Assembly: GCF_020297485.1 (NCBI RefSeq)
Contig: NZ_JAIWZC010000001.1
Coordinates: 2,604,001-2,668,000 of the forward strand
DNA length: 64,000 nucleotides
DNA from: Enterocloster clostridioformis
GTDB lineage: Bacteria; Bacillota; Clostridia; Lachnospirales; Lachnospiraceae
Direction of reading: 5' to 3'
A program made the translations under genes and the position numbers. How positions within the stretch are numbered: the first letter of the stretch is position 1; each line of letters starts with the position of its first letter. Under the pieces are notes generated by a model. That model searched no databases, was not told where the DNA came from, and saw only the letters and a list, made by a program, of their open reading frames with translations. Shown piece by piece: positions 33,483 through 46,210 of this stretch.

Positions 33483-34706
33483 TCATACTTTTGTCACATT
33501 TTTCCGGCCGGGAAAGGCGCGGACGGCGACCGTCACCCGGCTGCAAACCACGCACAGAACCACGGTGGCCGCCATGTCAGGAAGGGTGCTTCCCACAGGC
33601 GTATCCACCCGCATCAGTATGCGGTAAATCACAAAACCCGCCAGCCAGATAACCAGGTTTGGCAGATTGGCGGCCTCCGCCTCATGGTCCTGCCGGATGA
33701 TAAAATAATCCGCAATCTGAATGGCAATCATGGGGGCAAACACGGAACCAATCAGATAAAGGAAATCTGTAATGTTGTCCATGGGGTATACCATGGCTGC
33801 CGCGGTGCCGATGATGGTCACTGCCACTGCCGCCCATTTTTCCTTAATCCTGTGTGTGATGGATACGCTGGATACACCGGCAGAGTAGGCGTCCAGGAAC
33901 GTGGTAGTCACGGTGGACAGCACAATAATGAGAAGACCTGCCGCTCCCAGCCCCGCCTTGACCATGATGACAGATATATCATAATCACCCGTGTAAATGG
34001 CTGCTCCCATTCCGATGACATACATAAAGCAGCTCACCAGGCCGTAAACCACGGCGCTGGCCGCCGTTGCCCCAAAGGGCCTTTCGGCCTCCCTTGTATA
34101 ATCGCTTATGAGGGGCAGCCAGGACAGAGGCATGGCCACGGACAATTCAACTGCGGCCCCAAAGCTCAGGGAACCGCCTGCCTCCGCGGACGGCTCCACG
34201 TTACCTGTAAATATAACCCGGCACAAAATGAGAGTCAGTACAAACAGAGCCGTCATGGCTGCCGTATTGATTTTTCCCAGGTTCCTGATTCCAATTAAAA
34301 GCCACACCAGAATCAGACCGCCAATCACAAGACACCATGCCCACAGTCCCGCGTCATAAATACCGTTAGCAGCCAGACCGCCGTCATAAATCATGATGGA
34401 GGTCCAGCCCACCAGCTGCAGGACGTTGAGTCCGCAAAACAGCAGGCTTCCTTTCTGTCCAAAGCTCATCTTCACTGTTTCCATGGAGCTTCGCCTGGTA
34501 TGCCCGCCAATAAGCCCCGCCACAAACAGCAGCATGCAGCCAATCACATGACCCAGCACAATGGCTGCCAGCCCCTTTCCAAATCCCAGAGGCGCCAGAT
34601 ATGTGCCTGTCAGTATCTCGGCTATGGATACTCCTGCCCCAAACCATATAAGGCTGTTGGCAGATACGGAGGTTCCCTTTTCCTTCATTCTCATCTTTTC
34701 CCTCAT
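33483..34706 (-). CDS. cytX: Hydroxymethylpyrimidine transporter CytX
   Basis: A 407-residue NCS1-family permease with about 12 hydrophobic segments ('ANSLIWFGAGVSIAEILTGT', 'LAAIVLGHVIGCMLLFVAGL', 'YPMDNITDFLYLIGSVFAP'). NCS1 members import nucleobases, and the CytX clade takes up thiamine pyrimidine precursors. That assignment is strongly supported here because the gene follows thiD by 12 bases under a TPP riboswitch. Start at 34706 has AAGGAGG 7 bases upstream; the ATG two codons earlier abuts the site. Confidence 0.87.
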   Translation of the reverse strand: MREKMRMKEKGTSVSANSLIWFGAGVSIAEILTGTYLAPLGFGKGLAAIVLGHVIGCMLLFVAGLIGGHTRRSSMETVKMSFGQKGSLLFCGLNVLQLVGWTSIMIYDGGLAANGIYDAGLWAWCLVIGGLILVWLLIGIRNLGKINTAAMTALFVLTLILCRVIFTGNVEPSAEAGGSLSFGAAVELSVAMPLSWLPLISDYTREAERPFGATAASAVVYGLVSCFMYVIGMGAAIYTGDYDISVIMVKAGLGAAGLLIIVLSTVTTTFLDAYSAGVSSVSITHRIKEKWAAVAVTIIGTAAAMVYPMDNITDFLYLIGSVFAPMIAIQIADYFIIRQDHEAEAANLPNLVIWLAGFVIYRILMRVDTPVGSTLPDMAATVVLCVVCSRVTVAVRAFPGRKNVTKV

Positions 34707-34718
34707 GCTCATCCCTCC

Positions 34719-35510
34719 TTAATACTCGCCCCGGATGGCAAATCCATGGTTCATTGGTCCGCTTCCTTTTCCCAGGTCCAGCTGCGCTTCCAGCGCGCCT
34801 GAGAGATATACCTTGGCGCGCTCCACAGCCAGGTCCATATCCATGCCCTTGGCCAGATTGGAGGCAATGGCGCTGGACAGGGTACAGCCTGTCCCATGGG
34901 TATTGGGGTTGTCAATCCGCCTGCCGTTAAACCATTTCAGTTTCTTATGCCGGTACAGCAGATCATTGGCATCATTGAGCTGGTGGCCGCCCTTAAGGAG
35001 TACGGCGCAGCCATAGCTCTCCCCGATGGCCCTTGCCGCCTTCTCCATGTCACCGGGATTATGTATCTCCATTCCTGACAGCACCTCTGCCTCCGGGATA
35101 TTGGGGGTCAGCAGGTTTGCCATGGGAAGAAGGACTTCCTTCAGCGCCTCTATGGCCTCCCCGCTGATGAGCCGGGAACCGCTGGTGGATACCATCACCG
35201 GGTCCACCACCACATTGGCTGCCCTGTAAAACGCCAGCCTGTCCCCGATGGCCTCTATCAGGCCGCCGGAGGAAACCATCCCGATTTTAACCGCGTCCGG
35301 GAAGATATCCGTAAATATATCGTCTAGCTGTTCCTTTAAAAAAGATGGAGTCACCTCCATGATTCCTGTCACGCCGGTGGTATTCTGGGCAGTCAATGCC
35401 GTTATGGCGCTCATGGCGTATACCCCGTGAGCGGTCATGGTCTTGATATCTGCCTGGATGCCGGCGCCTCCGCTGGAATCGCTTCCCGCGATTGTTAATG
35501 CTGTTTTCAT
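34719..35510 (-). CDS. thiD: Hydroxymethylpyrimidine/phosphomethylpyrimidine kinase
   Basis: A 263-residue ribokinase-fold enzyme that phosphorylates HMP to HMP-P and HMP-PP for thiamine synthesis. Motifs: ALTIAGSDSSGGAGIQADIK at the N-terminus, AITALTAQNTTGV, VVVDPVMVSTSG, LLTPNIPEAEVL, and NPNTHGTGCTLSSAIAS with the catalytic Asp/Gly/Cys region (GTGC). AAGGAG lies 7 bases before the ATG at 35510. With cytX it forms a pyrimidine salvage operon whose TPP riboswitch lies 2 kb upstream, beyond an intron. Confidence 0.95.
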   Translation of the reverse strand: MKTALTIAGSDSSGGAGIQADIKTMTAHGVYAMSAITALTAQNTTGVTGIMEVTPSFLKEQLDDIFTDIFPDAVKIGMVSSGGLIEAIGDRLAFYRAANVVVDPVMVSTSGSRLISGEAIEALKEVLLPMANLLTPNIPEAEVLSGMEIHNPGDMEKAARAIGESYGCAVLLKGGHQLNDANDLLYRHKKLKWFNGRRIDNPNTHGTGCTLSSAIASNLAKGMDMDLAVERAKVYLSGALEAQLDLGKGSGPMNHGFAIRGEY

Positions 35511-35625
35511 AGTCATTCTCCTTTTCGCATTAATTTTATAAAGCGGCGGAAGGTGGTGCCCCCAATCCGCCGCCGGGAAGCTCCGGCGCCCATGCCTGAT
35601 ACCATACAGAATTGTCCCGCGTATT

Positions 35626-37476
35626 AATCGAGTAGGAGGAAGGCGATTATTTCGCCTTCCGACCTCTCACACCACCGTACGTACCGTTCGGTATACGGCG
35701 GTTCAATCAACTTAACATGTAACAGCCTTTTCGGCGTAGTAGTCTTCCATGGATACAAGACCAAACTTAGCTAGTCTCTCTTTACTGATACAAATGTGGA
35801 GATTCCAGCTTCTGCACACTCTGGCATATCCTTTGGCATATGAAATGCCATGTGCCGCATTTGGCGGCAGACCAAGTTTGATAAGATTCTTTTCCCTGTT
35901 CTTTGGCGTTTTCCAGTGTTTCCATATGCACATGCGCAGTCGATACCGAATCTGTCCGTCCATTTTTGCGCACAGCCTTTTCATGCTTCCGATTTTGAAA
36001 TAATTTATCCACCCTCGGATAAGCCGGTTGAGTTTCCCAATTTTATAACCATTGCCCACTCCCCAGCTCCTGCTTGTATATTTCTTCATCTGCGCCTTGA
36101 ACTTTGCTGCCGCTTTCGGGTGTGGTCTGGCTTTGTACCCTTTGGCAAATGAGTCATAGTAAAATCCAAACCCCAGATACTTAATGCCCTTTGGTTTATC
36201 AACCCTGCTCTTTTCCGCGTTCACTTTCAGTCCAAGCTTTTCCTCTATAAACCGAGCCACGCTCTTCATTACCCGCTCTGCCGCCTGTCTGCTCCCGACC
36301 ATTATAATAAGGTCATCTGCATACCGGACGAAATCCAGCCTCCTTGCTTCCAGTTCTTTGTCCAGCTCATTTAACATGATATTTGCTAACAGCGGCGAGA
36401 TATTTCCACCCTGCGGTGTGCCGACTACCGTATCTTCATACTCATCATCAATCATTACGCCGCTGACCAGAATCTTTCTTACCACCGATATGACATCTCC
36501 GTCCTTTATTGTCCGTCCGAAAATCGTCATCAGCTTGTCATGGTCTACTGTGTCAAAGAATTTCGCTAGGTCGATATCCACTATCCAGTTGTGTCCGTCA
36601 TTCATCATTTCCAATGCTTTAAGGACTGCCTGCTGTGCACACCGCTTGGGTCTGAATCCATAGCTGTGGTCGTGAAACTGCTCCTCAAATATCGGGGTAA
36701 GCACCTGTGCCACCGCCTGCTGTACAAAGCGGTCTACTGCTGTTGGCACTCCAAGATTTCTTGTACCACCATCGGGTTTGGGTATCTCCACCCTGCGGAC
36801 TGGCTTCGGCTTATACTTCCTCGTCCGCAACTGTTCCTTAATGTTTTCGCCGTTTTCCGAAAGATATGCGCCAAGTTCTTCAACGGTCATCCCGTCCACG
36901 CCTGCCGCTCCTTTATTCCTTACGACTTGCAGATACGCCGCATTTAGATTATCCCTGCTTAATATCTGCTCCATGAGACTGCTTGTGTCCATGCGTTGTT
37001 TCCTTTCTGCCCCTTTTGCCTTTGCCGCCTTTGAAGTCATCGACAGGCGTATGCTCCGGCTACGAAGTGGAACGTACTTCAACTGATTGATTGTTCAGCC
37101 CTTCGCTCCGTCCCCATTACAGGAACTTCCTCACTACTATGGCTTCTGCTGACTTCTCACAATTCGTTGTTACTACGGCTAATGAGACCGCCTGTGAGAC
37201 CTCCCCAGTTAAGGTGCGTGTTCTTTTCCTCCATGTACCTGCCGCATTTACTCGTACTTCCGGCAACCTTTTGGACTTCAGTGCCTTTTGCCACCTTATC
37301 CGTATTTCCGAGCCTTATATGCGGTTCCTGTCCGTCAGGTCAGAGGTTTGCTTACAGCTTCTTTCAGATTCCGTCTCACGGCGGACACCCTTGCTGTTCG
37401 GCTATGTGCTTCGTTGTTGCCTACGCGCACTTGGGACTTTCACCCATTAGAAAACGCCCATGCTGGGCAAACAAAA
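35626..37476 (-). mobile_element. Group II intron, copy 1 (complete), between the TPP riboswitch and thiD
   Basis: About 1.85 kb shared base for base, as far as I can read, with the copy at 42989-46210. That comparison sets the ends to within a few bases. On the minus strand it starts in the sequence GTTTGCCCAGCATGGGCG, right after the U tract of a terminator. It carries a long structured 5' region, a reverse transcriptase gene, and at the 3' end a domain-V-like hairpin (GAACCGCCGTATACC/ACGGTACGTACGGT, about 35673-35705) and a domain VI hairpin (GGAAGGCGA/TCGCCTTCC). The reverse transcriptase lacks an endonuclease domain and the site follows a terminator stem, both features of class IIC introns. 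Confidence 0.85.
35712..36992 (-). CDS. ltrA: Group II intron reverse transcriptase/maturase, copy 1
   Basis: A 426-residue intron-encoded protein: RT motifs RNKGAAGVDGMT, YKPKPVRRVEIPKPDGGTR, FRPKRCAQQA, DIDLAKFFDTVDH, GTPQGGNISPLLANI, and the active site FVRYADDLII. A maturase (X/thumb) region follows, with 'NRLIRGWINYFKIGSMK'. No HNH endonuclease follows, consistent with class C introns. It splices its host RNA and mobilises it through target-primed reverse transcription. Start at 36992 follows AAAGGA; a longer open frame to 37082 lacks a site. Intact, unlike copy 2. Confidence 0.93.
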   Translation of the reverse strand: MDTSSLMEQILSRDNLNAAYLQVVRNKGAAGVDGMTVEELGAYLSENGENIKEQLRTRKYKPKPVRRVEIPKPDGGTRNLGVPTAVDRFVQQAVAQVLTPIFEEQFHDHSYGFRPKRCAQQAVLKALEMMNDGHNWIVDIDLAKFFDTVDHDKLMTIFGRTIKDGDVISVVRKILVSGVMIDDEYEDTVVGTPQGGNISPLLANIMLNELDKELEARRLDFVRYADDLIIMVGSRQAAERVMKSVARFIEEKLGLKVNAEKSRVDKPKGIKYLGFGFYYDSFAKGYKARPHPKAAAKFKAQMKKYTSRSWGVGNGYKIGKLNRLIRGWINYFKIGSMKRLCAKMDGQIRYRLRMCIWKHWKTPKNREKNLIKLGLPPNAAHGISYAKGYARVCRSWNLHICISKERLAKFGLVSMEDYYAEKAVTC

Positions 37477-37504
37477 GGCGGAACACCAAAACAGGTGCTC
37501 CGCC
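37477..37504 (-). terminator. Intrinsic terminator of the TPP riboswitch
   Basis: GGCGGAGCACC pairs with GGTGTTCCGCC (one GU pair) around TGTTTT, followed by TTTTG. It lies just after the aptamer and directly before the intron, so it serves as the riboswitch expression platform and as the intron target. Confidence 0.8.
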
Positions 37505-37520
37505 GGCAATTGTCCGCTAT

Positions 37521-37606
37521 GGTCCCTACGTTGGCATTATCCAAATCAGGTAATGGGTCTAAGCATGAACAGCTTACTCTCAGCCCACTTAAGTGAGCTC
37601 CCCGTT
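37521..37606 (-). promoter_or_regulatory. TPP riboswitch (THI element) for thiD-cytX
   Basis: Read on the minus strand, it shows the conserved thi-box segments in order: ACGGGGAGC at the 5' side, GGGCTGAGAG, a variable P3 extension, GACCC, then CCTGATTTGGATAATGCC and CGTAGGGA at the 3' side. These match the thiamine pyrophosphate aptamer well. High TPP should favour the adjacent terminator and stop transcription before the intron, thiD and cytX. Confidence 0.93.
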
Positions 37607-37620
37607 TATTTACAACTACC

Positions 37621-37648
37621 ATTATACATGGTTTCAGGGAGAATGCAA
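37621..37648 (-). promoter_or_regulatory. Promoter of the TPP riboswitch transcript
   Basis: On the minus strand -35 TTGCAT (37643-37648), a 16-base spacer and -10 TATAAT (37621-37626), about 15 bases before the aptamer. Confidence 0.65.
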
Positions 37649-37701
37649 TCCCTTTAGCAAGAACCTCTCCGAAACCGCTCCAAAACCTCTCTGTCATCCG
37701 C

Positions 37702-39006
37702 CTATCCCAGGGCCCTGTCCACGATTTTCACCATGGCCGTAAAGGTGGTGTCATTGTAATCCACATCGAACTCGTCCCCCGGCTGGTTCAGGATGCGCTT
37801 AATGCTCAGTATACCCAGCCCGCCATCCCTTTTGCTGGACAGAATCCTGCTTCCGTTCTTCTTAATCTGTCCGTTATAGGAATTTTCCACCAGCATCATA
37901 AGGTGGCCGTCCAGCCATCTGACCCGGACCAGGATGAACCGATGTCCCGTCAGGCGGCGGCATGCTTCCATGGCGTTTTCCAGCAGGTTTCCGATGACAA
38001 TGCACAGAGTCAAATCATCCACTGGCACATGGGCGGATAAGTCCACCCTGGCTGTGAACTCCACCCCATCCTGCCTTGCCCTGGCGGCATACTCCTGCAA
38101 AAGTCCGTTTACGGCCTGGTTCTGGCAGAACACCATCTCAGCCGTCATATCCAGCTCCCTCTTCAGGTTCATCAGGTAATGGGTCCGCTCGCCCCGGTCC
38201 ATGTTCAGAAGAGCGTGGATATGATGGCGGAAATCATGCTTGATGATGCGCACCTGTTCAATATAATCCAGAGTCTGGTTATAATGCTCCCTCTGCTGGC
38301 TGATGAGCTGCCTGGCAAACTGCAGCTCCTCCTCGGTCCTGCGGCGGCACATGATTTCCAGGGTGCTGCTCAAAATCAGCACGTACAGCACCAGTATCAT
38401 AACGCACAGCGCCAGATAGAACAGCACGTCCTCCAGTCCGCGCACGGCCAGGGAACGGGATGAAAATATGGTATTGTTCCCAATGAAAAGGATGAACAGG
38501 GAAACAGACGGATATGTCAGCAGCAGGGAACAGGATCGCCTGGATAACTGGTCAAAGAGACGGTTAACCCTGTCCCTCAGCCAAAACCGTACAAACACAT
38601 AAAATCCGCAGGCCCACAGCAGGGATACCGCCACACAGATCTGTCCGTATGTCAGGGACACATGCCCCTTTAATATCCAGGACGCAAACTCATTCAGCGA
38701 TGTGGACAGGACCGCGAACAGCCATGCGGAAATGTACAGGAATCCTTTCTTAAGCAGGGTTCCCTTAAAAAAAATAAGGAGCACCAGAAAGTAAAGACAG
38801 GAAAATATGCCCCGGAACACAAAAAAGACCTGGGGGCTGATATGGAATACGGATTCCATGGATATCATGATGACCCACAGATAAACGGATATGGCTGCTA
38901 TGTTCTCCCTGTCCCTGTGTTTCGGCTCCAGGCACACAAAAATGGGCATCATGCGCACGGCCAGATTGATCAGATTCACAAAAACAGTACACGCTGCATC
39001 GTTCAT
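37702..39006 (-). CDS. Sensor histidine kinase, GHKL/AgrC-like
   Basis: A 434-residue membrane kinase with about six hydrophobic segments in residues 1-205 and a coiled-coil linker. The phospho-acceptor region is 'IIKHDFRHHIHALLNM', and the GHKL ATPase has IVIGNLLENAMEA (N-box) and GGLGILSIKRI (G-box). This architecture is that of kinases paired with LytTR regulators that sense peptides or small signals. It is encoded 7 bases after the LytTR regulator gene, with GAGG before its ATG. Confidence 0.9.
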   Translation of the reverse strand: MNDAACTVFVNLINLAVRMMPIFVCLEPKHRDRENIAAISVYLWVIMISMESVFHISPQVFFVFRGIFSCLYFLVLLIFFKGTLLKKGFLYISAWLFAVLSTSLNEFASWILKGHVSLTYGQICVAVSLLWACGFYVFVRFWLRDRVNRLFDQLSRRSCSLLLTYPSVSLFILFIGNNTIFSSRSLAVRGLEDVLFYLALCVMILVLYVLILSSTLEIMCRRRTEEELQFARQLISQQREHYNQTLDYIEQVRIIKHDFRHHIHALLNMDRGERTHYLMNLKRELDMTAEMVFCQNQAVNGLLQEYAARARQDGVEFTARVDLSAHVPVDDLTLCIVIGNLLENAMEACRRLTGHRFILVRVRWLDGHLMMLVENSYNGQIKKNGSRILSSKRDGGLGILSIKRILNQPGDEFDVDYNDTTFTAMVKIVDRALG

Positions 39007-41528: not shown

Positions 41529-42863
41529 TTATGATGATTTATGATTCCCCTTCTTCCAATCCCGCACCACCTGCATCGCCATTTTTCCGGCCGTGTTCCT
41601 GTTAAGAGGCATAACCCGGCCGTGATAGGGAAAGTATACCAGGTTGGACCACAGCACCTCGTATCCTCCCTTATCATACTCTTCTGCGGTGGGCAGATAG
41701 CTGCTGCATCCATTGGTATAGCCGTTAAAAAACAGAAGCGGCGCCTCCGCCTCCTTCCAGATGTCAACGGCGATCCGACACATGGCCTCATTGGGAACGC
41801 CGCACAGACAGCCCTGGCTGATAAAAAGATACTGAATCTCAATGTCCGCGTACTGGCGCCGGATTCCTCCGTCCAGAAGGCGCCTCACCTCCTCCAGCCA
41901 CATCCTCCCGTCAATTCCGGCTTCTCTCTGCGCCTCCTCTGCAATTTTCCCTGCCCTTTCCATGTCCGGCACATCCGCCGCAAAACGGCAGAAGGAGGAA
42001 CGGATTTCCAGACGCTCCAAAGGCGTCATCACCAATGAACCATACACAGCATCCACGGACCGGAAAATACGCTCCGCCATCTGTTCCAGGGCCCTGCGGC
42101 TCTGGGGCCCATATTTTTTCCTGTACTCCTGTGAAAATCCGTTCCGTGCCATCTCACAGCAGTGAACCTCCAAATATTCCAGGTTATCCTGATGATATTT
42201 GGGACGGATATCACCGGCTGCCCCCTGTACCATCATCACCCGGCAGTTATATGTCTCCTCCAGCCGTTTCCTTGCGGCCCCAATATAATCTGCGGAGATA
42301 AAGTAATTATCCCCGGACAACACATTGGCATGGGCTGTCACACGAATAAGAAGGACCTCCTTTCCCTTCCCATCCCGCGCAGCCAGCTTCAAAATACCTA
42401 ACCGCCCGTCCATCTGGTCCGGTTCATTCCTCCTGTTTATCCCCACGGTGTTTTCTCCAATCCCCCAGGCAGCCTCCATGGGTTTCATATTGCCTGCGGC
42501 CTCCCGGACAGCCCTGTCCGCCTTCCTGCATACCATTTCAAAATAATCCGGTTCCTCTGCGGCATTGGGCGCGCTGTGAGTATGGGAAAAGCATACCATA
42601 ATCCGCTCCCGCCCCGTGTGAAGCGCCGCCGCGGCCCTATCCCGGATAACATTGGACAGGTCCACCGTAAAGCCCAGACTGTCAATGGCAATAAGGCCGC
42701 CCCTGACGCCGTCAGCCTCCCATACCAATGCCTGAAGCCTTAAGGAATCCATGACGCCCTGCGATCGGTTATCCGGACGGTAAAATCCCACCATCTCAGC
42801 CGGACTGTCCGGCGTGATGTCCGCCTCCCCATATCCGGCCTGTACCATATCATATGTCTGCAT
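41529..42863 (-). CDS. Neutral/alkaline ceramidase N-terminal-domain-like hydrolase
   Basis: A 444-residue protein matching the N-terminal domain of neutral ceramidases: AGYGEADITPDSPAEMVGF at the start, 'GGLIAIDSLGFTVDLSNVI', FSHTHSAPNA (zinc-type His pair) and 'MMVQGAAGDIRPKYHQDN'. No signal peptide, so cytoplasmic. Bacterial short versions of this domain are poorly characterised and may act on other amides. It sits convergent with the symporter, so a shared substrate is possible but unproven. It lies between the two intron copies. Confidence 0.8.
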   Translation of the reverse strand: MQTYDMVQAGYGEADITPDSPAEMVGFYRPDNRSQGVMDSLRLQALVWEADGVRGGLIAIDSLGFTVDLSNVIRDRAAAALHTGRERIMVCFSHTHSAPNAAEEPDYFEMVCRKADRAVREAAGNMKPMEAAWGIGENTVGINRRNEPDQMDGRLGILKLAARDGKGKEVLLIRVTAHANVLSGDNYFISADYIGAARKRLEETYNCRVMMVQGAAGDIRPKYHQDNLEYLEVHCCEMARNGFSQEYRKKYGPQSRRALEQMAERIFRSVDAVYGSLVMTPLERLEIRSSFCRFAADVPDMERAGKIAEEAQREAGIDGRMWLEEVRRLLDGGIRRQYADIEIQYLFISQGCLCGVPNEAMCRIAVDIWKEAEAPLLFFNGYTNGCSSYLPTAEEYDKGGYEVLWSNLVYFPYHGRVMPLNRNTAGKMAMQVVRDWKKGNHKSS

Positions 42864-43162
42864 GATAAGACACCTCTTTTCTTATTTCTGATGACTCTAT
42901 CCTATCTCCCGGAAAATGGATATGCAATCTACTGTTTTCTTCTGTAGAATTCTGTACTATGTTTCCCGCATCAGCTTCTCCAACCCGCAATCGAGTAGGA
43001 GGAAGGCGATTATTTCGCCTTCCGACCTCTCACACCACCGTACGTACCGTTCGGTATACGGCGGTTCAATCAACTTAACATGTAACAGCCTTTTCGGCGT
43101 AGTAGTCTTCCATGGATACAAGACCAAACTTAGCTAGTACAGCATTGCTTAAATATCAGTGA

Positions 43163-43927
43163 TTAAATTACTAATGGTATCCCGGCATATGTCCACTTAA
43201 ATGGGTGTGCTGTAAGATTGTATTGTTCAATAAAGCGCAGGATGCTTGCTTCCAGTTCTTCTATTGATAGGTAGCTTTTCCGCTTCAGCAGCTTCCGGTT
43301 AATGATGCCAAACCATATCTCAATCTGGTTCATCCAGGAACTGTGTTTCGGAGTATAGACAAAGCGGATCCGGTGGGAAGGGTCATGCAGGAAATCCGCT
43401 CGGCTTTCCATACTTTTAAGGATCCCTGTTTTCCCTTTTTTGCCCAGTTCCACGCCAAGGGCACAGGCTTCTGCCACAAAGCGGACAAGGGCTTCCGATT
43501 TATGGGTGTTTAGGCCATCGCATATAAATGTCCATGGGGCTTGCGGGTCTGTCCCTACCAATGCTTTCACGGCTTCCACAAAATCCTCTTCTGTGCGTGT
43601 GGAGTTTAAATACGGCATTTCCATACGGCCCGTTGCAACATCAAAGAACCCGATGAGGCTGGTCGTGCCATGGCGGATATACTCAAACTCCATTTTGGCG
43701 CACTGGCCGGGTAATGGGAGCTTGTCAGGATATTTATGTTCCAGCGCTTGTACCCCGGTCATTTCATCCGTGGAAACAATGTGTGCACCTTCCCGGCTTT
43801 GTTCCTGGGCACTCTGGTACAGGCCGCAGATTTCGTTTACTTTCCGCGCAAAAGATTCCGGGGCTTCCGTCTTTTCCGAAGAATGAAGCCAGTAACGGAT
43901 TTTGTGGGGATGTAAATCTACCTCATT
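43163..43927 (-). CDS. IS630-type transposase, catalytic part (ORF B, reached by -1 frameshift)
   Basis: About 254 codons from the frameshift site to the stop at 43163, carrying the DDE/RNase H-like catalytic core: STDEMTG (first Asp), FICDGLNTHKS (second Asp) and WMNQIEIWFG (Glu), then 'NRKLLKRKSYLSIEELEA'. There is no good independent start at the 5' end of this frame. An internal ATG at 43762 would remove the first catalytic region, so expression as a fusion with ORF A is expected. Confidence 0.85.
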   Translation of the reverse strand, partial: NEVDLHPHKIRYWLHSSEKTEAPESFARKVNEICGLYQSAQEQSREGAHIVSTDEMTGVQALEHKYPDKLPLPGQCAKMEFEYIRHGTTSLIGFFDVATGRMEMPYLNSTRTEEDFVEAVKALVGTDPQAPWTFICDGLNTHKSEALVRFVAEACALGVELGKKGKTGILKSMESRADFLHDPSHRIRFVYTPKHSSWMNQIEIWFGIINRKLLKRKSYLSIEELEASILRFIEQYNLTAHPFKWTYAGIPLVI

Positions 43928-44412
43928 TTTAAAAAACGGCTGACAGATTTCTCAGAAATCTGTTCAGCGATCCCCTGCTTTTTAATTTCTGCCACTAACA
44001 GCGGGAGACTCCACTGGCTTACTTCGTACCCAAAATCATTTGGGTTGCTGCAGGCAAGGTCGATGATCCGCATGATCTGGTCCGGCGTAAAAACAGACGG
44101 GGCACCGGGGCGTTTTTTATCGGACAGGACTGCCCGTATCTCATCTTCAAGCTTTTTCGGGTCGTCCATTTCAATCCTCCGCAAGGCTGGGAGCGCCGCG
44201 AGGAACCGACTGCGCCAGGTGGCAACATTATTATAATGAAGCCCGACCTGTGGTGCAATATTCTGGTTGAGTTCCCCCTGTGACGCAAGCAGGACAATGC
44301 TGGCTCTTTTGACCAGTCCTGACGGAAGGGAGCGGCTTTTTGAAAAAGCAGATAATATGTTTTTCATGGCATCAGATAAAACCGGGATAGTATCAATTGT
44401 TTTCCTTCGCAT
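43918..44412 (-). CDS. IS630-type transposase, DNA-binding part (ORF A)
   Basis: A 164-residue frame with helix-turn-helix content ('LVKRASIVLLASQGELNQNI APQVGLHYNNVATW' and a second helical unit 'IMRIIDLACSNPNDFG') that ends at TAG 43918. The slippery heptamer T TTA AAA at 43927-43933 lies three codons before this stop. Slipping by -1 gives FLKNEVDLHPHKIRYW and continues in ORF B, for a fused transposase of about 416 residues. Confidence 0.85.
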   Translation of the reverse strand: MRRKTIDTIPVLSDAMKNILSAFSKSRSLPSGLVKRASIVLLASQGELNQNIAPQVGLHYNNVATWRSRFLAALPALRRIEMDDPKKLEDEIRAVLSDKKRPGAPSVFTPDQIMRIIDLACSNPNDFGYEVSQWSLPLLVAEIKKQGIAEQISEKSVSRFLKMR

Positions 44413-44475
44413 AATAACACATCCATTCTTTAGTGATAGAATTATTATGCACCGACTACAATAAAAAAGCAACGT

Positions 44476-45726
44476 CTATTCATTATTATTTTGGCAATGC
44501 TGTACTAGTCTCTCTTTACTGATACAAATGTGGAGATTCCAGCTTCTGCACACTCTGGCATATCCTTTGGCATATGAAATGCCATGTGCCGCATTTGGCG
44601 GCAGACCAAGTTTGATAAGATTCTTTTCCCTGTTCTTTGGCGTTTTCCAGTGTTTCCATATGCACATGCGCAGTCGATACCGAATCTGTCCGTCCATTTT
44701 TGCGCACAGCCTTTTCATGCTTCCGATTTTGAAATAATTTATCCACCCTCGGATAAGCCGGTTGAGTTTCCCAATTTTATAACCATTGCCCACTCCCCAG
44801 CTCCTGCTTGTATATTTCTTCATCTGCGCCTTGAACTTTGCTGCCGCTTTCGGGTGTGGTCTGGCTTTGTACCCTTTGGCAAATGAGTCATAGTAAAATC
44901 CAAACCCCAGATACTTAATGCCCTTTGGTTTATCAACCCTGCTCTTTTCCGCGTTCACTTTCAGTCCAAGCTTTTCCTCTATAAACCGAGCCACGCTCTT
45001 CATTACCCGCTCTGCCGCCTGTCTGCTCCCGACCATTATAATAAGGTCATCTGCATACCGGACGAAATCCAGCCTCCTTGCTTCCAGTTCTTTGTCCAGC
45101 TCATTTAACATGATATTTGCTAACAGCGGCGAGATATTTCCACCCTGCGGTGTGCCGACTACCGTATCTTCATACTCATCATCAATCATTACGCCGCTGA
45201 CCAGAATCTTTCTTACCACCGATATGACATCTCCGTCCTTTATTGTCCGTCCGAAAATCGTCATCAGCTTGTCATGGTCTACTGTGTCAAAGAATTTCGC
45301 TAGGTCGATATCCACTATCCAGTTGTGTCCGTCATTCATCATTTCCAATGCTTTAAGGACTGCCTGCTGTGCACACCGCTTGGGTCTGAATCCATAGCTG
45401 TGGTCGTGAAACTGCTCCTCAAATATCGGGGTAAGCACCTGTGCCACCGCCTGCTGTACAAAGCGGTCTACTGCTGTTGGCACTCCAAGATTTCTTGTAC
45501 CACCATCGGGTTTGGGTATCTCCACCCTGCGGACTGGCTTCGGCTTATACTTCCTCGTCCGCAACTGTTCCTTAATGTTTTCGCCGTTTTCCGAAAGATA
45601 TGCGCCAAGTTCTTCAACGGTCATCCCGTCCACGCCTGCCGCTCCTTTATTCCTTACGACTTGCAGATACGCCGCATTTAGATTATCCCTGCTTAATATC
45701 TGCTCCATGAGACTGCTTGTGTCCAT
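44476..45726 (-). pseudogene. Group II intron reverse transcriptase, copy 2, truncated by the IS
   Basis: Identical to the copy 1 protein through residue 407 (ending SKERL). The frame then runs into the IS end and adds nine foreign residues (VQHCQNNNE) before a stop, losing the last 19 native residues. The lost 3' end of the gene is at 43081-43136 on the other side of the IS. RT and maturase motifs including YADD remain, so partial activity is conceivable. Confidence 0.88.
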
Positions 45727-46210
45727 GCGTTGTTTCCTTTCTGCCCCTTTTGCCTTTGCCGCCTTTGAAGTCATCGACAGGCGTATGCTCCGGCTACGAA
45801 GTGGAACGTACTTCAACTGATTGATTGTTCAGCCCTTCGCTCCGTCCCCATTACAGGAACTTCCTCACTACTATGGCTTCTGCTGACTTCTCACAATTCG
45901 TTGTTACTACGGCTAATGAGACCGCCTGTGAGACCTCCCCAGTTAAGGTGCGTGTTCTTTTCCTCCATGTACCTGCCGCATTTACTCGTACTTCCGGCAA
46001 CCTTTTGGACTTCAGTGCCTTTTGCCACCTTATCCGTATTTCCGAGCCTTATATGCGGTTCCTGTCCGTCAGGTCAGAGGTTTGCTTACAGCTTCTTTCA
46101 GATTCCGTCTCACGGCGGACACCCTTGCTGTTCGGCTATGTGCTTCGTTGTTGCCTACGCGCACTTGGGACTTTCACCCATTAGAAAACGCCCATGCTGG
46201 GCAAACAAAA

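Follow-up and report, generated by a model that had tools for sequence, protein, structure and literature searches.

The window analysed here, a stretch of 64,000 nucleotides from Enterocloster clostridioformis, carries on its minus strand, in this order, a TATAAT box, a TPP aptamer, a terminator hairpin followed by TTTT, a group II intron, a 116-nt leader, thiD and cytX. Both genes score above their NCBIfam cut-offs: thiD (34719-35510), coding for an HMP/HMP-P kinase, matches TIGR00097 with 339.8 bits, and cytX (33483-34712), coding for a putative HMP transporter, matches TIGR02358 with 393.6 bits. The start of thiD is probably 35510 and not 35516, the longest-ORF start given by the ORF caller. 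Relatives of this gene are found mostly in Lachnospiraceae and other Clostridia. A second thiD (67% identical, with a leader of its own) lies elsewhere in the genome; a TenA-like ORF sits after this second gene, not before it.

At the upstream end of the locus, the -10 element of the riboswitch promoter (37621-37626, minus strand) is the same TATAAT as at two loci of the same genus, L117 and L118; upstream of it no -35 element reaching the consensus of our scan was found, and the box itself was missed by that scan. The TPP covariance-model search proposed in an earlier note on this DNA places the aptamer at 37614-37505 (minus strand; RF00059, 56.1 bits, E 2.6e-08), above the Rfam gathering score of 54.3 bits. 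It is followed on the same strand by the terminator hairpin (37477-37504), recognised by terminator search and by folding, and by the TTTT tract (37473-37476), which ends the 5' exon and is directly abutted by the 5' end of the intron. The earlier note had described riboswitch, intron, thiD and cytX in this arrangement, with the intron inserted exactly in the U tract; Rfam, NCBIfam and Pfam matches bear out the first statement, and three intron-free leaders from the same genus, which fix the junction, bear out the second.

The intron was also said to be complete and to encode a reverse transcriptase, and it does. It spans 35627-37472 (minus strand; 1846 nt, GTTTGC...CTCGAT), as delimited by Rfam domains and by comparison of copies. 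Rfam matches cover domains 1-4 (RF02001, 136.5 bits; RF01998, 47.6 bits), while RF00029 (domains 5-6) is reported at 11 of 20 scanned loci and for another copy in the window but not for the copy at thiD, despite identical letters. A candidate branch-point A, bulged from domain 6, was read by eye at 35633. The reverse transcriptase/maturase (35712-36992, minus strand) matches TIGR04416 with 421.5 bits and contains the Pfam domains RVT_1 and GIIM. Its longest ORF starts at 37082, and since the alignment with 7uim_D begins at residue 31 of that ORF, the ATG at 36992 is probably the true start. The closest solved relatives are 7uim_D (a full-length protein match of 723 bits over 427 residues of the chain), 5hhj and then GsI-IIC 6ar1, and on account of these relatives we take the intron to be of group IIC. 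We take 7uim and 5hhj to be from Eubacterium rectale, and 7uim to be a group IIC RNP. The reverse transcriptase/maturase domains, the ribozyme domains and a target of hairpin plus U tract are all present, as in other members of group IIC (bacterial class C).

This intron is abundant in its own genome. At least 21 copies measure exactly 1846 nt, of which 20 are identical and one (L026) has a single-base difference, and four further intron 5' ends bring the number of copies with a located 5' end to at least 25; these counts are lower bounds, as the best 40 of 106 candidates were scored, and a separate search of the same genome gave at least 19. The window holds a second copy at 42990-46206 (minus strand), recognised by Rfam and sequence comparison, which lies behind a hairpin and TTTT and is broken by a transposase-bearing insertion. 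All 25 copies start directly after TTTT, with a hairpin ending 0 or 1 nt before it. A hairpin stands at 25 of 25 intron sites, with a mean energy of -22.6 kcal/mol, and at 72 of 279 of the remaining TTTT tracts of the flanking sequence, where the mean is -6.2; the 3' exon begins with T in all 22 copies with a readable 3' end. The target rule is thus hairpin and TTTT, then T. Insertion behind intrinsic terminators is known for group IIC introns (PMC4424553 and PMC8919778, citing Robart et al. 2007), and as every site seen here is alike, nothing special is required to explain the position in the U tract of a riboswitch. For this intron the placement is routine, for the riboswitch it is unusual, and the suggestion of the earlier note that it represents a new logic is not supported. 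That 20 of the 21 full-length copies are identical points to recent spread and mobility.

Three genomes of the same genus, G004, G012 and G011 (loci L117, L118 and L119), have an intron-free TPP leader running across the site, and their thiD genes are 98%, 97% and 94% identical, respectively, to that of the window. In two others, G003 and G007, the thiD element discussed below is preceded by a TPP riboswitch at a distance of 107-168 nt. The insertion is present in one of 17 genomes of the genus; among the matches listed in the other 16, none is a full-length intron, and 10 of these genomes have fragments or distant relatives of it. We regard the following as established: the presence of the intron with its precise ends, the unoccupied site in three sister species, and the target rule, which holds for all 25 copies. 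Judged from these comparisons, the insertion is precise and recent, and the intron likely arrived from outside the genus.

Two of the 25 copies in this genome lie in riboswitch terminators, one TPP and one glycine. The latter copy (L011) sits between the terminator of a glycine riboswitch (RF00504, 55 bits) and a 226-aa ORF in which the start of a serine hydroxymethyltransferase (PF00464) is joined to part of a glycine cleavage P protein (PF02347). Outside this genome, we scanned 55 intron sites of the family, drawn from at least 91 intron places with at most the best five candidates per genome scored; the 5' end was located in 53, and flanks were scanned over at most 1.5 kb (about 0.4-0.5 kb for 26 sites, some ending at a contig edge). 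Within that range a single site, in a genome of another genus (G041), has an Rfam riboswitch upstream. Here the order is a TPP riboswitch (65.4 bits), its terminator, an intron fragment, the thiD-leader element, thiD and thiC. The fragment belongs to a different IIC intron, of which it retains the 5' part only, without the reverse transcriptase, and is 75% identical over the matched 5' part. Between it and the thiD-leader element lies a fragment which, by eye, resembles a phosphatase gene. By this comparison of sequences, the arrangement behind a TPP riboswitch upstream of thiD arose at least twice, and the older case, that of G041, has decayed. A preference of the intron for riboswitch terminators was considered and rejected, there being no clear excess in 2 of the 25 sites of this genome and 1 of the 55 from the family, and we claim no enrichment.

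What might the insertion mean for expression? In predicted folds of a transcript cut before the 3' arm of the terminator, the 5' strand of the aptamer, AAACGGG (37601-37607, minus strand), pairs with CCUGUUU of the terminator (37495-37489), while the full transcript folds as the aptamer helices plus the terminator. The same competing pairing is predicted in five further leaders of the genus (L117, L118, L119, L122 and L124), and it was not seen by folding in L242, the truncated leader of G041. The riboswitch terminator is accordingly predicted to be conditional, by way of a competing antiterminator. If so, low TPP would leave the terminator open and RNA polymerase would enter this intron copy mainly then, and this agrees with the earlier proposal that transcription of the intron from the riboswitch promoter needs read-through.

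We therefore favour, as probable, a reading in which a recent, spreading group IIC intron entered the terminator of the thiD-cytX TPP riboswitch by its ordinary rule of hairpin and TTTT, then T, so that this copy would come to be transcribed under thiamine control, with the leader element of thiD left untouched. Precise splicing would restore a leader resembling that of the sister species, with a junction CCGCCTTTT-TAATACGCGG close to the G012 leader CCGCTTTTTTGATATGCGG. Unspliced read-through RNA could also yield ThiD, and the insertion would thus be tolerated; the second thiD may soften any cost. The start codon of thiD stands 117 nt beyond the intron with a Shine-Dalgarno sequence of its own (AAGGAG), and the intron lies in the 5' untranslated leader. 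The suggestion that thiD depends on splicing is thereby weakened, and on the evidence of this ribosome-binding site we provisionally reject splicing as a necessity. Several points count against gating: class C introns behind terminators are expected to be rarely transcribed (PMC8919778), the thiD-cytX aptamer has the lowest score among the five TPP matches in the genome, and the antiterminator is a prediction within one genus, not seen in the truncated G041 leader. Even if it operates, control of one copy may leave total intron mobility unchanged, since the RNA and the reverse transcriptase could come from at least 20 further full-length copies.

The expected rarity of class C transcription would fit a neutral insertion, with a terminator strong at all TPP levels, a silent intron and a poorly expressed thiD whose work is done by the second thiD, present with its own leader; the predicted fold of the terminator hairpin is indeed stable. 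We think this rather unlikely, for the aptamer, its terminator, the predicted antiterminator and the leader of thiD have all stayed intact and nearly identical to those of sister species. This is what continued use of the leader would produce, although there may not yet have been time for decay since the insertion.

A further alternative appears distinctly improbable, namely that transcription of thiD starts at a promoter within the 3' part of the intron or within the 3' exon, so that the riboswitch would no longer matter. The leader contains the faintly promoter-like UUGGGG-N17-UUUAUA (UAUAUA in many relatives), but in relatives CCGGGG often stands in place of its -35-like part, and the flanking arms covary as RNA. 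A crude sigma-70 scan of 35450-37750 gave no sites at threshold where 2.4 would be expected by chance; the earlier note had allowed for a promoter inside the intron, and this empty scan speaks against it, yet weakly, because the promoter of the riboswitch itself was missed as well. That the host has co-opted the intron, with thiD output requiring both TPP state and splicing, could draw on the two or more origins indicated by the different, decayed IIC intron of another genus, but is scarcely credible given an insertion in one of 17 genomes of the genus, near-identical and recent copies, an older case reduced to a fragment without reverse transcriptase (against selection to keep it) and riboswitch sites that show no clear excess.

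To return to a copy transcribed under thiamine control, its interest lies in the fact that class C introns are thought to be mostly silent behind terminators, whereas the terminator of a riboswitch opens on cue. Intron copies in riboswitch terminators thus allow one to ask directly whether a metabolite of the host can gate a retroelement.

The most valuable feature within these coordinates is one that the earlier note does not contain, a conserved element in the thiD leader. Between intron and thiD, it reads GGCGGCGGA-UUGGGGGCACCACCU-UCCGCCGCU, then UUAUAAAAUUAAUGC. Its core is a hairpin, P1 (35542-35574, minus strand), with arms at 35574-35566 and 35550-35542 and the loop UUGGGGGCACCACCU, supported by alignment, covariation and a covariance model. 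The alignment holds 58 distinct sequences from 69 leader rows, after removal of L134 (the same locus as L132), L126, L054 and L084 and collapse of near-duplicates. The nine base pairs of P1 are paired in 93.5% of cells, against 33-65% for slid versions of the helix, with two-sided change at seven of the nine. In 500 shuffles, its covariation score, the percentage of paired cells, the count of pair types and the count of two-sided cells are never reached, and seven pairs with change on both sides are reached in 17; kinship is ignored throughout, in these tests as in those of P2 below. The loop, GGGGGCACCAC, has eight invariant positions and three that are at least 90% kept. G-U pairs outnumber A-C pairs 55 to 8 in P1, which indicates that the selected molecule is the sense RNA and makes an operator in duplex DNA unlikely.

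A second helix, P2, may form between UUAAUGC (35527-35533, minus strand) and GCAUUAA (35495-35501, minus strand), the latter inside thiD codons. In 62 leaders (after dropping L134, L084, L115 and duplicates), helices score 16.3 on average, whereas exchanging the coding regions between genomes gives 15.4 (with the observed mean reached in 0 of 300 swaps) and shuffled tails give 8.9; the contrast with swapping is small because most sequences share one type. Three matched types occur, UUAAUGC/GCAUUAA, UCAAUGC/GCAUUGA and AUAAUGC/GCAUUAU. At the first varying position 58 of 63 leaders pair (Fisher p 7e-12, kinship ignored) and at the second 45 of 63 (p 2e-4, likewise); the starting set was 76 distinct leaders, of which 13 have no tail anchor, and three more have no recognised coding start. 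In several of these 13 leaders the helix is shifted (UGCUGU:ACAGCA), and P2 is absent from L126 in the stretch examined. Minimum-energy folds show P2 in L091, L093 and L095, and that of the window's own 35580-35480 contains P1 without P2. Support for P2 is weaker than for P1. As P2 would enclose the Shine-Dalgarno sequence and the start codon, it suggests translational control of thiD, and the element formed by P1 and P2, untouched by the intron, most likely acts at this level.

The strict loop stands before thiD at 59 of 80 thiD loci, and the 21 others include contig ends and diverged loops (L041). Within the genus, the loop is present at thiD in 9 of 17 genomes, and two loci (L127 and L128) have a TPP leader without the element. 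A TPP riboswitch lies at most 500 nt upstream of the element in 21 of 68 rows, by a count of pattern matches, not of model matches; that of the window is further off because the intron intervenes. One locus with both element and TPP riboswitch (L110) lay outside the 68 rows. A covariance model of the hairpin finds it at 19 places in 18 of 291 genomes of the class, always directly before thiD. Phylum-wide the model matches 4 of 299 genomes, three of them among those 18 and the fourth (L215) again before thiD. In one further family, the loop pattern matches once each in 24 of 61 genomes, against three matches in the reversed control; 12 of these matches precede thiD and 12, from two genera, precede tenA-like ORFs. 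The tenA variant reads UUGGGGGUACCACC, then UUG and an ORF of 222-223 aa. Two of the twelve ORFs were tested and match TENA_THI-4 (PF03070; 188.8 and 178 bits), and the others read alike. TenA has a role in making HMP. HMP is what ThiD acts on, and TenA serves salvage within the thiamine pathway (PMC12452182).

Searched against Rfam 15 with E up to 10, the window at 35500-35640 gives as its best overlap 13.2 bits to SAM_alpha, for which the gathering score is 36; at 20 other loci, with E up to 1, no match overlaps the element, and two of these loci have a TPP match just upstream of it, one below gathering. The element has the appearance of a regulatory RNA of the HMP branch, one as yet uncatalogued. 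We tentatively suggest, as a reading that may well prove right, that it represents a new class of metabolite-sensing RNA, in which a hairpin with a GGGGG(C/U)ACCAC loop would sense a compound of the HMP branch and control translation of thiD and of the tenA variant, thiD thereby standing under two switches. On thiD it would act via the helix reaching into the codons, and in the tenA variant the loop itself carries the Shine-Dalgarno sequence. At the locus in the window, the retroelement would then lie between this sensor and the TPP riboswitch, its transcription following TPP. Alternatively, and this we consider possible if somewhat doubtful, the element is a binding site for a protein, or a fixed fold that dampens translation. 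A loop with near-invariant letters is equally compatible with a protein site. The restriction to thiD and variant tenA-family genes fits pathway-specific sensing and tells against this alternative, though a pathway-specific protein would account for it equally. Should the element bind a ligand, as the sensor reading has it, the thiamine pathway of many Clostridia would gain an RNA sensor that has so far gone unlisted.

No description of such a thiD-leader RNA was found in the literature searched, which covered few subscription papers; excerpts of PMC11477304 (on thiD), PMC8632094 (on thiamin) and PMC12452182 (on thiD and tenA) treat TPP, HMP-PP and other known switches and not this element. 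The same literature yielded no description of a group II intron in a riboswitch terminator.

Compared with known systems, the intron shares with other class C introns behind terminators its type of reverse transcriptase/maturase, its target of hairpin and U tract, precise insertion and a high number of copies. It differs from those at ordinary sites in that the copy at thiD follows a regulated riboswitch terminator, and so lies inside a leader, not behind a gene. The protein is of the same type as that of the group II intron in PDB 7uim, and the difference is one of genomic setting only. A riboswitch and a self-splicing intron have been found together in one clostridial leader before, where a c-di-GMP riboswitch stands in tandem with a group I intron (PMC3073962). 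There the aptamer controls the choice of splice site, whereas at thiD a group II retroelement lies behind a terminator and no allosteric contact is proposed.

For the thiD-leader element, the closest likeness is to the thiS (HMP-PP) motif, about 30% of whose members occur in tandem with TPP riboswitches (PMC6478431); in both cases the leader of a thiamine gene holds a TPP riboswitch and, after it, another conserved hairpin of compact form, here in the 21 of 68 rows counted by pattern. Hairpins with a U run, of other sequences than the thiD-leader element, do occur before thiW at six of 20 loci (L176-L180 and L182), and by position they look like thiS as PMC6478431 describes it; an RNA-model search over these hairpins found nothing. 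We rejected identity of the thiD-leader element with the thiS motif on two grounds. First, thiS RNAs have a strong stem that ends in a run of six or more U, whereas here the stem is followed in the consensus by UAUAUAAAA, without such a run. Second, they stand before HET-P genes (both features from the description in PMC6478431), whereas the genes here are thiD (19 of 19 matches in the class) or tenA-like. In sum, the thiS RNAs are embedded in a terminator with its U run ahead of HET-P genes, whereas the hairpin described here stands before thiD, has no U run and continues into a tail that can pair with the coding region.

Upstream of thiD in the window lies a conserved hairpin with the loop GGGGGCACCAC, together with a possible helix that reaches into the thiD codons (35580-35495, minus strand), and a hairpin with this loop is likewise found upstream of thiD in many Clostridia. 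Within Rfam, no family was matched by the window hairpin. The second thiD of the source genome (loci L214 and L133) also carries the leader element (G000:C1:1747660-1747718, minus strand), and is followed by an ORF that by eye is TenA-like.

A variant of the loop, UUGGGGGUACCACC, directly abuts the UUG start of TenA-like ORFs at twelve loci in two genera (L243-L248 and L255-L260; two of the twelve ORFs were tested against Pfam). The GGGGG of this variant could act as a Shine-Dalgarno sequence for these ORFs.

The window holds a second copy of the intron (42990-46206, minus strand), interrupted by an inserted segment in which two ORFs resemble transposases and carry HTH and DDE domains. Just past this copy sits a gene (41529-42863, minus strand) whose protein has a weak match, of 34.8 bits, to Pfam PF04734 (neutral ceramidase N-terminal domain). 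The source genome also contains a second, diverged intron-like family (69% identity), with at least nine similar places. Elsewhere in the bacterial family, tRNA genes lie upstream of other introns of the window intron's kind at loci L148, L168 and L220. At L009, another locus in the source genome, an intron copy is directly upstream of the 5' end of a different group II intron, so that a single terminator is followed by two introns in tandem.

Riboswitch terminators precede introns elsewhere too. At L011, also in the source genome, a glycine riboswitch terminator precedes a copy of the same intron as at the window thiD; the ORF 3' of this copy terminates early and fuses the start of SHMT to a portion of the glycine cleavage P protein. 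In a genome of another genus (L242, G041:C64:154500-160352), a TPP riboswitch and a terminator lie upstream of the thiD-leader element, as does a IIC intron other than that of the window, decayed to a fragment; the leader element is followed by thiD and thiC.
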